From Nitrospira sp. (GTDB lineage Bacteria > Nitrospirota > Nitrospiria > Nitrospirales > Nitrospiraceae): DNA of 64,000 nucleotides. The stretch spans positions 1 to 64,000 of the forward strand of contig JAEURX010000048.1 of the NCBI GenBank assembly GCA_016788885.1, in the 5' to 3' direction. The notes under the pieces are model-generated. The model saw only the letters and a list, made by a program, of their open reading frames with translations. It was not told the DNA's origin and searched no databases. Both the position numbers and the translations under genes were made by a program. Below are positions 22,446 through 27,934 of the stretch, piece by piece; within the stretch, counting starts at the first letter, position 1, and every line of letters begins with the position of its first letter.

Positions 22446-22901
22446 TTACGGCTCTTGCGTCTTCACCTTGCCCCGATGGGCCACCAGGTCACGCACTCCG
22501 GGGTCTTGCGGCGCACCGAACTCCGACACGTCATCCTCCACCCACTTCTCCGCCCCCATGTTGCTCATGCCGTGGAAATGAGCCCCTTCTTCGATGACCA
22601 CCACTGGGCTCTGGATGTCGCCGATGAGAATGCCCGGCTTTTGAATCTCGACTTTTTGGGATGCAGTGACGGAGCCCTTCACCCGCCCACTGATTTCAAC
22701 CGAGCCGGCGGCAATCACACCCTTGATCACGGCACTTTCGCCGACGATCACCGCTCCGCCCGTGTGAACCTCTCCCTCTACACGCCCATCGATCCGAACC
22801 GTGCCATCAAACGTCACGATACCCTTAAAACTGGTGCCCTTCCCGAGAAAGGTGAACTTGTCAACTTCCGCGACGGACTGCTTTTTGGTCTCACCCCACA
22901 T
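22446..22901 (-). CDS. Bactofilin (polymerising cytoskeletal protein), copy A
   Basis: 151 residues. Central bactofilin (DUF583) beta-helix of short hydrophobic repeats: TFLGKGTSFKGIVTFDGTV, IDGRVEGEVHTGGAVIVGE, AVIKGVIAAGSVEISGRVKG, VTASQKVEIQKPGILIGDI. Flexible charged N- and C-terminal tails. Bactofilins form nucleotide-independent filaments at the membrane or in the cytoplasm. In Myxococcus the bactofilins BacNOP organise the ParABS system, so the position next to parAB here suggests a similar role. 32 bases upstream of mnmA. Confidence 0.92.
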   Translation of the reverse strand: MWGETKKQSVAEVDKFTFLGKGTSFKGIVTFDGTVRIDGRVEGEVHTGGAVIVGESAVIKGVIAAGSVEISGRVKGSVTASQKVEIQKPGILIGDIQSPVVVIEEGAHFHGMSNMGAEKWVEDDVSEFGAPQDPGVRDLVAHRGKVKTQEP

Positions 22902-23025: not shown

Positions 23026-23502
23026 CTAGCCGTTCACCAGTTTCACACCTTGCCCACGTGTCGTCCCCTGAGGCTCACGCGTTCCCGTCTGGCTCATCTC
23101 CAGAGTCCCGTTGAAGACCACCCCTTCTTCCATCGCCAGCAACGGAGCCTTCACGCCCGCATTGACCACGGCAGGAGCCCGCAACTTTACCTTTTCACGC
23201 GCGCTGATATCGCCGGTGATCTTCCCCTTGCATACCACCGTCCCGGCTGTGATCTTCGCCGTCAACACGGCATCTTCCCCGACCAACAGCACGCCTTCCG
23301 TATGAATTTCTCCATCCAAATTGCCATCGATACGCACCGTGCCGTTATAAGAAATGACTCCCTTAAAGCTCACGCCCTTCCCGACAAAGGCATTGATTTC
23401 TTCGCTTCCTTCACGTGGTACCGCGGCTTCCAAATTGTCCATCTCCATTCCCTCACTTTGTCCCGCTTGACGCTTTCCCTCTGGCTTGTCCTTAATCCAC
23501 AT
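23026..23502 (-). CDS. Bactofilin, copy B
   Basis: 158 residues, with GGAGGTAGGGT directly before the ATG. Same fold as copy A: NAFVGKGVSFKGVISYNGTV, IDGNLDGEIHTEGVLLVGED, LTAKITAGTVVCKGKITGD, SAREKVKLRAPAVVNAGVKA. It has a longer charged N-terminal tail (KDKPEGKRQAGQSEG). The two copies share the core pattern but differ widely elsewhere, so they may co-assemble or play distinct roles. 140 bases downstream of parB and 125 upstream of copy A on the same strand. Confidence 0.92.
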   Translation of the reverse strand: MWIKDKPEGKRQAGQSEGMEMDNLEAAVPREGSEEINAFVGKGVSFKGVISYNGTVRIDGNLDGEIHTEGVLLVGEDAVLTAKITAGTVVCKGKITGDISAREKVKLRAPAVVNAGVKAPLLAMEEGVVFNGTLEMSQTGTREPQGTTRGQGVKLVNG

Positions 23503-23641: not shown

Positions 23642-24490
23642 TTACTCAAGCAACCGCTCCACCAGCCCGTCCAATTCTTCCGGAGAAAAATAATGGATGA
23701 CGATTTTTCCGCCGCGACGTCCCCGCTGCACATCAACCCTGGTTCCCAGGCGTTTTTGCAGCCGCTCCTCGAGATCCGATCGCAAGGGTGCCCGAACGGG
23801 TCGCTTCCCTGCCTTCTTCGCTTCCGCATGGCCCTGCACCAACCGCTCCGCGTCGCGTACCGACAATTGCTCGCTGACAATCTGCGTGGCCAGACTCACT
23901 TGCGCAGCCGGCGTCATCAACCCCAAAATCACTTTCGCATGCCCTGCAGACAATTGATCCGCCTCAATCATCTGCTGTACTTCAGGAGGCAACGAGGTCA
24001 ACCGCAACATGTTCGCCACAGACGAACGATCGCAGGCAACTTTCTGCGCGATGGCCTCCTGGGTGAGTCCGAACTCGTTCACCATGCGCTGATAGGCCCG
24101 CGCGGTTTCCATGGGATTCAGGTCATCCCGCTGCAGGTTTTCCACCAAGGCGAGCACCATCGACTCTTGATCGGACACGTTTCGAACAAGAGCTGGAATC
24201 TTCTGTATTCCAGCCAACTTAGCGGCTCTCAGGCGTCTCTCTCCGGCAATGAGCTCATATATGCCGTCCCCCTTGCGTCGCACCAGAATCGGTTGCAGCA
24301 AGCCGTTTTGCTTGAGTGAAGCCGTCAGTTCAGCCAGCTCCACCTCGGAGAACTGCTGCCGTGGCTGAAACCGGTTGGGAACAATGGCTTCCAAGCGCAG
24401 TTCCTGCACGTCGCCGCGCTCAGGATCCGTGGTTATTCGACCGCTCGGCAAGAGCGCATCGAGACCTCTACCGAGGGCTTTTTTCTCCAT
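23642..24490 (-). CDS. parB: Chromosome partitioning protein ParB
   Basis: 282 residues; CTP-dependent clamp that loads at parS. N-terminal ALGRGLDALLPSG (ParA-contacting end), ParB/Srx domain with ELRLEAIVPNRFQPRQQF, LLQPILVRRKGDGIYELIAGERRLRAAKLAG (GERR CTPase/arginine motif), VLALVENLQRDDLNPMETA, then the helix-turn-helix GLTQEAIAQKVACDRSSVANMLRL and a C-terminal dimerisation domain ending in HYFSPEELDGLVERLL. The start overlaps the parA stop by 23 bases. Its likely targets are the two parS sites at 25288 and 25949. Confidence 0.97.
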   Translation of the reverse strand: MEKKALGRGLDALLPSGRITTDPERGDVQELRLEAIVPNRFQPRQQFSEVELAELTASLKQNGLLQPILVRRKGDGIYELIAGERRLRAAKLAGIQKIPALVRNVSDQESMVLALVENLQRDDLNPMETARAYQRMVNEFGLTQEAIAQKVACDRSSVANMLRLTSLPPEVQQMIEADQLSAGHAKVILGLMTPAAQVSLATQIVSEQLSVRDAERLVQGHAEAKKAGKRPVRAPLRSDLEERLQKRLGTRVDVQRGRRGGKIVIHYFSPEELDGLVERLLE

Positions 24491-25244
24491 GGGTCACAAA
24501 CTCCTTAGCTAGGGAAAGATAGGCCTGGGCACCGGAGGATGCCATGTTGTAAAGCAACGCGGGGCGCCCATAACTGGGAGCCTCAGCGAGTGTCACATTA
24601 CGAGGGATCATGGTTTGATACACGCTTTCACCAAAGTGCCCACGAATCTGCTCGACCACTTGGCGCGCCAGCGAATTCCGTGCGTCGTACATGGTGAGCA
24701 CAATGCCCTCAATCTCAAGACCGGGATTAAGGGACTGTCTCAGGCGCTGTATGCTCTCCATGAGTCGCCCCAAACCTTCCATGGCGTAATACTCACATTG
24801 CACGGGAATCAAGACTGAATGGGCCGCCACCATCGCATTGATCGTCAAGAGTCCAAGCGCTGGCGGGCAATCCAACAGAATGGTGTCATACCGATCGGCA
24901 ACTTCCGCCAAGGCTTCCTTCAGGCGCTGCTCTCGCCCCTCAATGTTCACGAGTTCGACCTCAGCGCCGGCAAGGTGTGAGTTGGCAGGAACCAAGGACA
25001 ACCCATTTACCGCAGTATTCATGGTCAGAGACGCGATACTTTCCTTCACAATCAAGGCATTGTAGATCGTCTTTCCCAGCGCCATAGCATCGACGCCAAG
25101 TCCGCTGGTGGCATTTCCTTGCGGATCAATGTCCACCAGCAACACAGATCCCCCTTCAATTGCCAGGGCTGCAGCGAGATTCACGGAGGTGGTTGTTTTT
25201 CCAACTCCACCTTTTTGATTTGCAACCGCAATGATTCGAGCCAT
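24468..25244 (-). CDS. parA: Chromosome partitioning ATPase ParA (Soj)
   Basis: 258 residues; deviant-Walker ATPase that moves ParB-parS complexes. ARIIAVANQKGGVGKTTTSVNLAAAL (deviant Walker A with the signature Lys), LLVDIDPQGNATSGLG, and TILLDCPPALGLLTINAMVA (Walker B). Nonspecific-DNA-binding Arg residues lie in the C-terminal third. Short N-terminus as in Soj, without the regulatory helix-turn-helix of plasmid type Ia ParA. Co-transcribed with parB. Confidence 0.97.
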   Translation of the reverse strand: MARIIAVANQKGGVGKTTTSVNLAAALAIEGGSVLLVDIDPQGNATSGLGVDAMALGKTIYNALIVKESIASLTMNTAVNGLSLVPANSHLAGAEVELVNIEGREQRLKEALAEVADRYDTILLDCPPALGLLTINAMVAAHSVLIPVQCEYYAMEGLGRLMESIQRLRQSLNPGLEIEGIVLTMYDARNSLARQVVEQIRGHFGESVYQTMIPRNVTLAEAPSYGRPALLYNMASSGAQAYLSLAKEFVTHGEKSPR

Positions 25245-25287: not shown

Positions 25288-25303
25288 TGTTCCACGTGGA
25301 ACA
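25288..25303. promoter_or_regulatory. parS centromere site 1
   Basis: TGTTCCACGTGGAACA, a perfect 16-base palindrome matching the bacterial parS consensus (T-G-T-T-T/C-C-A-C-G-T-G-G/A-A-A-C-A). Lies between the rsmG stop and the parA start. ParB from the adjacent gene is expected to load here. Confidence 0.93.
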
Positions 25304-25308
25304 TCCAC

Positions 25309-25965
25309 TCACTTAGCAAATACCGACAACACTCGATGCCCGTACCCAGATGGAAGCTCATACTCGAGTTCTTTAAGCAAAGCAAGGTTGCCGAGACTAA
25401 CGCCTCCACCAACCCGTTCGGCTCGGTACAAAATCACCTTCCCACCGGGCTTGAGCAACTCCGCGAGCGCCGCCCCCCATCCATCCACTTTCAAGGCCCG
25501 AACCACAATATAATCAAATGCCTGAACCGAATCCTGCCTCTTCACATAGCCTTCCAATTTGGCAGTGATGACCGTCATGTTCTGCAAATCAAGCGATCCA
25601 ATCATGTACCGCAAAAACGAGCTCCTCTTCTCGCTTGGCTCAAGCAATACCATCGCCAGATCAGGCCGAACAAATTTCAGTGGCAAGGAAGGGAATCCAG
25701 CCCCGGCACCGATATCTAGCACGCACTTTTTTCCATTACTATCAATCACTTTCGCGCCAACAATCGAGTCAATGAAATGCTTCACCACAATCTCCTCATC
25801 CTGCTCAATGGCGGTGAGATTAATGGCCCGATTCCAGGTTTTCAGCTCACTCAAATAGCGAAGGAATTGCGAAATTGACGACCCAGGAAGGGGAAGTGTG
25901 AGCTGAGCGGCAAATGATCGAAGAGAGGCCTCGAACTGAGTTGCATCCTGTTCCACGTGGAACAA
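25309..25965 (-). CDS. rsmG: 16S rRNA (guanine-527-N7) methyltransferase
   Basis: 218 residues from a TTG at 25965, giving MFHVEQ, the same parS-encoded start seen in many RsmG proteins. SAM-binding motif VLDIGAGAGFPSLPLKFV, then LLEPSEKRSSFLRYMI, DYIVVRALKVDGWGAALAELLKPGGKVILYRA. N-terminal NRAINLTAIEQDEEIVVKHFIDSI is typical. Loss of RsmG gives low-level streptomycin resistance in other bacteria. Its start codon overlaps parS site 2 and its stop lies five bases before site 1. Confidence 0.95.
   Translation of the reverse strand: MFHVEQDATQFEASLRSFAAQLTLPLPGSSISQFLRYLSELKTWNRAINLTAIEQDEEIVVKHFIDSIVGAKVIDSNGKKCVLDIGAGAGFPSLPLKFVRPDLAMVLLEPSEKRSSFLRYMIGSLDLQNMTVITAKLEGYVKRQDSVQAFDYIVVRALKVDGWGAALAELLKPGGKVILYRAERVGGGVSLGNLALLKELEYELPSGYGHRVLSVFAK
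25949..25964. promoter_or_regulatory. parS centromere site 2 (embedded at the rsmG start)
   Basis: A second perfect TGTTCCACGTGGAACA, 661 bases from the first. On the minus strand it overlaps the rsmG initiation codon and encodes residues 1-6. ParB loading here could affect rsmG translation or transcription; this is inference. Confidence 0.93.
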
Positions 25966-26053
25966 TTACGCGAAATAGCTCACAGGGGTCAAGGTAAAGC
26001 TGCCGGCATGAGCAGGAAAATTCAGAAAGACAGTGACAATGACGGCGATCGGC

Positions 26054-27934
26054 CTATTCGCCCATGGCAGGCTGACGCCGCCAGCGTTCAAGCGCCACGA
26101 GAAGGAGCGAAATGGCAGCCGGCGTCACGCCTGAGATGCGGGAGGCTTGTCCGACCGTAGATGGCCTGACACGCCTGAACTTCTCCCTCACTTCACTAGA
26201 AAACCCGGAAACGCCGTCATAGTCGAACTCAGACGGTATGGCTCGCTGCTCAAACTTTTGCGATCGCTGAATCTGCTGAAGCTGTCGCTTGATATACCCT
26301 TCATACTTCACCTCGAGTTGAATGGCTTCTACGACCTCTGGATCACAGATATCTGCCCCACCGAAGACAGAGGCAACCTGTTGATAGGTGATGTCTTGGC
26401 GCCGAAGCACCTCGGCTAGCGACTGCGTCGGCGAAACCGTCCCTATTCCCCCCCCTTCGAGTAGACGCTTCACCTCTGGCGTAAGCCTCGGCCTTGTCTC
26501 CCTGAGCCGCCGAACCTCGCGCTCGATGAGTTCGCGCTTCGCCACAAGCCTTTCGCAAATCGCCGCTGGAATCAGCCCAATACGGTGGCCGATTTCCATG
26601 AGGCGCAGGTCCGCATTGTCATGACGAAGCAGGAGTCGATACTCAGCCCGAGACGTAAACATGCGATAAGGCTCCCTGGCATCCTTGGTAATCAGATCGT
26701 CAATCAGGACGCCAATATAGGCCTGCGATCGATCGAGAACGAGTGGCTCATTCCCACGGAGCTTCAATGCTGCGTTGATGCCGGCCATGATACCTTGAGC
26801 CCCCGCTTCCTCATAACCGGATGTCCCGTTGATTTGGCCAGCGTGGTACAGTCCCGCCACGAGTTTGGTTTCCAGCGTGCTGTGCAGTTGGCGCGGGGGA
26901 AAGTAGTCGTATTCGACGGCATAGCCAGGCTTCAATATCTTCGCCTGCTCCAACCCGGGAATAGTCATCAAAATAGCTGCCTGCACATCAACCGGCAGAC
27001 TGGTTGAAATACCGTTCGGATAAAATTCGTTCGTCTCCAAGCCCTCAGGCTCAATGAAAATCTGATGGCGATCTTTGTCGGCGAATCGAATGACCTTATC
27101 TTCAATGGATGGGCAGTATCGTGGCCCCACCGATTCAATCACTCCGCTGAATAACGGCGATCTATCGACATTTTTAGCAATAATATCATGCGTTTGAGAA
27201 TTCGTATGCGTCAGATGACACGGGACTTGCCGTAAAGGAATCTCCGTAGTACGATACGAGAATGGAGGTGGCGGTTCATCACCCGGCTGCAGTTCCATGA
27301 CAGAAAAATCGATGGAATCGCGATCGAGCCGAGGTGGGGTTCCGGTCTTCAGACGCCCAACCTCAAACCCAAAATCGCGCATGCAGTCGGACAGGCGTTC
27401 CGCTGACGATTCTCCGGCGCGTCCGGCGGGGAAATGGTTCAGGCCGATATGGATCAACCCCTTCAAAAACGTACCGGAGGTGAGCACGACTGCCTCGGTT
27501 TCGAGGTGGCTCCCTGCATCGGTGATGATGCCGGTGACGGAACCGGCACGAGTCAGCACCCGATCAACTGTCCCGCCCATGATGGTCAGGCCTGGCTGCG
27601 CCTTCAGGGTATCCTGCATGACCTGCCGGTACACCTTCTTATCGCACTGCGCCCTTAACGCACGAACCGCCGGCCCCTTACTCGTGTTGATCATGCGAAA
27701 CTGAATGCCCGCCCGATCGGTATTCCGCCCCATCTCGCCGCCCAAGGCATCGATCTCTTTCACGAGGTGCCCCTTCGCAATGCCGCCGATGGCGGGATTG
27801 CAGGACATCTGCGCAATCCGGTCGGGGTCCATGGTCAGCAACAACGTGCGGACTCCCATGCGCGCGGCGGCCAACGCGGCTTCACACCCTGCATGACCGC
27901 CTCCGACCACTATGACGTCGTACCGCTCACTCAT
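26054..27934 (-). CDS. mnmG: tRNA uridine 5-carboxymethylaminomethyl modification enzyme MnmG (GidA)
   Basis: FAD-dependent partner of MnmE, 626 residues from the ATG at 27934 (AAGGGA upstream; an ATG three codons earlier is possible). FAD-binding [101 protein letters not shown] and the C-terminal helical MnmE-binding domain through [17 protein letters not shown] and [17 protein letters not shown]. Full length. Starts 14 bases after the mnmE stop, in the usual mnmE-mnmG order. Confidence 0.97.

Follow-up and report, generated by a model that had tools for sequence, protein, structure and literature searches.

Why does a chromosomal centromere site overlap the 5′ end of a gene for a ribosomal RNA methyltransferase, and does the overlap matter to the gene through the peptide it encodes, through transcription, or not at all? 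This question is raised by a locus of Nitrospira, a genus of nitrite-oxidising environmental bacteria; a search of the literature recovered no account of chromosome segregation for Nitrospira nitrifiers. The DNA analysed is a stretch of 64,000 nucleotides from a Nitrospira sp. draft genome (contig JAEURX010000048.1; hereinafter the window), in which Pfam matches give the minus-strand gene order mnmG-rsmG-parA-parB. The genes of the locus and its two parS sites, in coordinates of the window, are:

26054..27934, minus strand: mnmG (gidA), the upstream neighbour (Pfam GIDA, E 2.8e-172)
25949..25964, no strand: parS site 1, overlapping the rsmG 5′ end; a perfect palindrome of 16 bp that covers -8 to +8 of the predicted promoter
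25309..25965, minus strand: rsmG (gidB), 16S rRNA methyltransferase G (Pfam PF02527, GidB, E 7.5e-41)
25288..25303, no strand: parS site 2, between the rsmG stop and the parA start
24468..25244, minus strand: parA (soj) (Pfam AAA_31, E 3.3e-64)
23642..24490, minus strand: parB (spo0J), with ParB_N, HTH_ParB and ParB_C domains
23026-23502 and 22446-22901, minus strand: two bactofilin genes (PF04519), downstream of parB

The earlier note on this DNA had described perfect 16-mers flanking rsmG, and both are indeed exact copies of TGTTCCACGTGGAACA, at 25288-25303 and 25949-25964. The genome-wide count that it had suggested as a check recovered just these two in the whole assembly (3.92 Mb, 75 contigs), 661 bp apart, as against about 0.0007 perfect copies expected from base composition; copies with one mismatch are absent, and versions with two mismatches occur at three more places, each on another contig. 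A 16-mer scattered over the chromosome is thereby ruled out, as the 3.92 Mb hold no other copy at 0-1 mismatch. Site 2 is set 5 nt downstream of the stop codon of rsmG, with about 43 nt left to the parA ATG. The positions of both sites are kept in all 54 Nitrospira family genomes, that of site 1 with at most one mismatch, and a parS directly 3′ of rsmG, as in site 2, recurs in several further classes of this phylum. Across the phylum, the parS motif was found in 211 of 245 genomes, mostly in one or two copies, and a reversed control motif in none of the 245.

The encoded ParB is of the kind expected to bind such a site: Pfam detects its ParB_N, HTH and C-terminal domains, and it can be aligned across the DNA-binding helices to Spo0J/ParB chains from solved structures. 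Read from the alignment, its specificity residues are R (173) and G (201), not the Q and R of Noc; R and G at these positions are absolutely conserved in parS-binding ParBs (PMC7383237). With regard to the replication origin, the distance from parS to dnaA is 155-424 kb in eight relatives, about 4-10% of the genome, and in Ca. N. defluvii, numbered from dnaA onward, the GC skew changes sign at that gene, with parS 328 kb off. An origin inside the window is ruled out: no GC-skew switch was found within it, and dnaA of the same draft genome sits on another contig. The genome G008 was left out of these distances, since its value of 1.06 Mb is not to be trusted given a patchwork GC skew typical of joined scaffolds; the skew sign of this single contig flips many times, and it probably consists of contigs joined in arbitrary order. 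Many bacteria have parS beside dnaA; the pair described here is a normal origin-side centromere, though not one adjoining dnaA. The reading of the two TGTTCCACGTGGAACA sites as the chromosomal ParABS centromere beside parAB is thus well supported, and the claim of a centromere adjoining parAB holds up on several counts: the sites are unique and conserved, they are accompanied by a parS-type ParB, and they lie on the origin side in complete relatives. The two 16-mers would then constitute the entire parS set of the Nitrospira chromosomal ParABS system.

We anchored an alignment of the 54 family genomes on the parS at the rsmG start and examined what lies upstream. TTGAC begins 27 or 28 nt upstream of site 1 in every one of them, CGTA is invariant at -6 to -3 from the site (54/54), and the columns between these elements and further upstream carry little information. 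Both are also held in all 38 genomes whose upstream flanks share less than 45% mutual identity, which argues that TTGAC and CGTA are under selection. The elements at issue, together with the candidate start codons, are:

25987..25992, minus strand: TTGACC, predicted -35 element of the rsmG(-parAB) promoter (TTGAC in 54/54 and 38/38)
25963..25970, minus strand: invariant CGTA (25967-25970; 54/54) with the predicted -10 TAATTG (25963-25968) at the genus spacing
25963..25965, minus strand: in-frame TTG, the rsmG start of the earlier note (MFHVEQ)
25954..25956, minus strand: GTG at the parS centre, predicted start of transcription and of leaderless RsmG translation, 12 nt after the T of TA
25309-25956, minus strand: rsmG if the GTG start is used (215 aa, MEQDATQ...)

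The block abutting parS reads TTGAC-N18/19-TA in all 54 family members. In 864 kb of genus DNA (the window and two other genus members), we counted 42 sites of the form TTGAC-N18-TAnnnT and 28 with N19, versus about 6 at other spacings; the TA of CGTA falls 18 or 19 nt after TTGAC, that is, at the spacings enriched in the genus. Nitrospira at large appears to use TTGAC-N18/19-TAnnnT promoters. The final two bases of the -10 TAATTG are positions 1-2 of parS, and the hexamer ends in G (parS position 2) where T is usual. This final G may make for a weak rsmG promoter, and it accounts for a generic promoter scan having reported none for rsmG. Taken together, a putative rsmG-parAB promoter most likely overlaps parS site 1.

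Beside site 2, no conserved promoter-like block was found in the 54 family genomes, and this site, ahead of parA, would be a ParB loading point without a conserved promoter. Outside the family the block is absent, while parS stays at the rsmG start; the promoter overlap is therefore not required for the centromere. A search of a genome-contig collection with a single RsmG protein as query gave no match, and the DNA pattern of promoter plus parS was used instead, recovering at least 118 stretches in the public genome collection; among the matches listed, all 80 but two are labelled Nitrospira, Nitrospiraceae or Nitrospirae/Nitrospirota. The two exceptions, titled "uncultured Nitrosospira", have the Nitrospira block of promoter and parS and are probably mislabelled.

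These distributions bear on the plainest alternative, namely that both parS sites are ParB loading points only, that their placement round rsmG is historical, and that transcription is unaffected. It draws on distant families that have parS near rsmG or parA but not at a conserved promoter, and on Pseudomonas aeruginosa, where the genes by the intragenic parS1 and parS2 show no derepression when ParB is at its native level (PMC5521831). We consider it rather unlikely, for it leaves aside that a promoter-like block, invariant throughout the family, abuts one parS and not the other.

If site 1 is part of a promoter with the TA at -12, the mRNA would be expected to begin at or close to the central GTG of parS. 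The codon before parS is TTG in 36, GTG in 13 and ATG in 5 of the 54 genomes, whereas parA starts with ATG in 48 of 54. We sought a Shine-Dalgarno signal at both candidate rsmG starts, the NTG and the GTG, and found none, while parA has one; the mean energies of anti-Shine-Dalgarno pairing are -2.3 kcal/mol for the NTG, -0.7 for the GTG and -6.2 for parA, with a background of -3.1. Between parS and the RsmG core, the spacing takes the values 106, 109, 112, 115 and 121, changing only by multiples of 3; the coding frame therefore runs from parS on, and the start lies at or before parS, which the GTG fits. Among promoters of the genus, an ATG or GTG opens an ORF 12-13 nt after the T in 10 cases, versus about 2 expected; the parS GTG stands at 12 nt from the TA, behind a hexamer whose last base is G and not the T of TAnnnT. 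Nine of these 10 leaderless candidates start with ATG, and GTG starts are less usual. As a general observation, Nitrospira appears to have leaderless genes with starts 12-13 nt after the TA. The most likely start of RsmG is thus the central GTG of parS, giving a protein that begins MEQ... from a leaderless mRNA.

The competing view is that parS is here plain rsmG coding DNA, with translation starting at the NTG (TTG in the window) and giving MFHVEQ, and the block serving as an upstream promoter or translation signal. An in-frame NTG is kept in 54 of 54 family members, never as CTG, and a few relatives have ATG at that codon. Nevertheless, ATG accounts for just 5 of 54 as compared to 48 of 54 for parA, the Shine-Dalgarno signal is absent, an in-frame stop usually comes right before the NTG so that no leader fitting the predicted promoter is left, a normal distance from -10 to +1 puts the mRNA 5′ end downstream of the NTG, and parS is found in other reading frames in other families. 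We accordingly regard this as unlikely. In two neighbouring families of the order, parS is again found where rsmG starts, but read in other frames or situated just before or overlapping a downstream ATG, and the MFHVEQ peptide is therefore not what is conserved; with codons 2-5 fixed by parS and the frames differing in other families, MFHVEQ as a conserved peptide is ruled out. The peptide is thus a by-product of the DNA site. Hence, parS at 25949 does overlap an in-frame TTG reading MFHVEQ, as had been noted; however, the TTG as the real start is probably wrong, and the proposal that the site matters by encoding the first residues of RsmG is not supported, in view of the 36/13/5 mixture of TTG, GTG and ATG, the missing Shine-Dalgarno signal and the other frames elsewhere. 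What ties parS to rsmG appears to be the promoter overlap rather than the peptide. By the same token, predictions of rsmG that begin MFHV.. in the Nitrospira family probably place its start wrongly, by three codons.

That the TTGAC...CGTA block is instead an accessory protein-binding site aiding ParB or SMC loading, with no promoter at all, is highly improbable: it is conserved as strongly as parS and its -10 hexamer is off consensus at the last base, but its 1-nt variable spacing and the promoter spacing of the genus fit a -35/-10 pair, and parS site 2 lacks the block.

We therefore return to the promoter overlap, and favour with moderate confidence a reading in which parS overlaps the rsmG-parAB promoter, the mRNA is leaderless with a GTG start, and ParB represses its own operon. 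Site 1 would be fused to a housekeeping promoter whose elements are TTGACC at -36 and TA at -12/-11, parS itself spanning -8 to +8, and transcription would begin at, or a base or two from, the central GTG of the palindrome. Translation of RsmG would start from this GTG, on a leaderless mRNA that would also carry parA and parB. Loading of the ParB clamp at parS and binding of RNA polymerase to the promoter would be mutually exclusive; ParB covering -8 to +8 would shut out RNA polymerase and impose negative feedback on rsmG-parA-parB, and it is from this mutual exclusion that we propose repression of the operon by ParB. ParB would thus probably control its own production, while for segregation it would load at the same parS sites. 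We infer that the promoter is active, that transcription and leaderless translation start as described, that parA and parB are co-transcribed with rsmG, and that ParB occupies the sites and represses the operon. Transcription of rsmG could also come from read-through of mnmG. Pressed further, the reading would give one palindrome four roles in the Nitrospira family, those of centromere, tail of the -10 element, transcription start and leaderless start codon; we put this forward tentatively, at slightly less than an even chance. If it is true, ParB concentration would directly set the transcription of its own operon along with that of a ribosome-modifying enzyme. The locus also offers one conserved site at which to test directly whether ParB regulates its own chromosomal par operon.

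The arrangement is a variant of a known layout, outlined in mycobacteria. In Mycobacterium bovis BCG, parS overlaps the -10 hexamer of the gidB promoter, and repression by ParB was proposed by the authors (PMC2346475). As in BCG and M. smegmatis, the Nitrospira parS lies over a -10, here a predicted one, upstream of gidB before parAB, with two parS per genome, and as in M. smegmatis it marks the gidB 5′ end (PMC2346475); at the sequence level, TAATTG runs into parS in 54 of 54 family genomes. The mycobacterial site differs in being TGTTTCACGTGAAACA rather than TGTTCCACGTGGAACA, with the second copy inside parA and not between rsmG and parA (PMC2346475), and unlike in mycobacteria, the parS centre in Nitrospira is the predicted start of both transcription and translation, conserved family-wide. 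In Thermus thermophilus, the part of the published account consulted places chromosomal parS inside gidB, the gene directly preceding parA (PMC4409726); unlike in Nitrospira, this part describes a single parS and reports no promoter overlap (PMC4409726). In P. aeruginosa, ParB on the intergenic parS3 and parS4 represses adjacent promoters, although, unlike in our proposal for Nitrospira, the genes so regulated are not the par operon (PMC5521831). Leaderless genes of bacteria lack a Shine-Dalgarno signal and have a TA-like element some 12 bp ahead of the start codon (PMC3160421); rsmG likewise has a TA, exactly 12 before its proposed start, and no Shine-Dalgarno signal, but departs from them in that the last T of TAnnnT is a G, set by parS. 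Likely new here are the fusion of promoter with parS across the whole family and a probable leaderless start inside a centromere site.

Two smaller features of the locus deserve mention. A weak terminator-like hairpin lies at 26000-26015 (minus strand), in the gap that separates mnmG from the predicted promoter of rsmG. A link between bactofilins and ParABS is known in Myxococcus, which the bactofilins after parB recall; in the eight other family genomes examined, a tandem bactofilin pair is found no more than about 3 kb from rsmG, and two genomes belonging to the same order have a single bactofilin near the locus.
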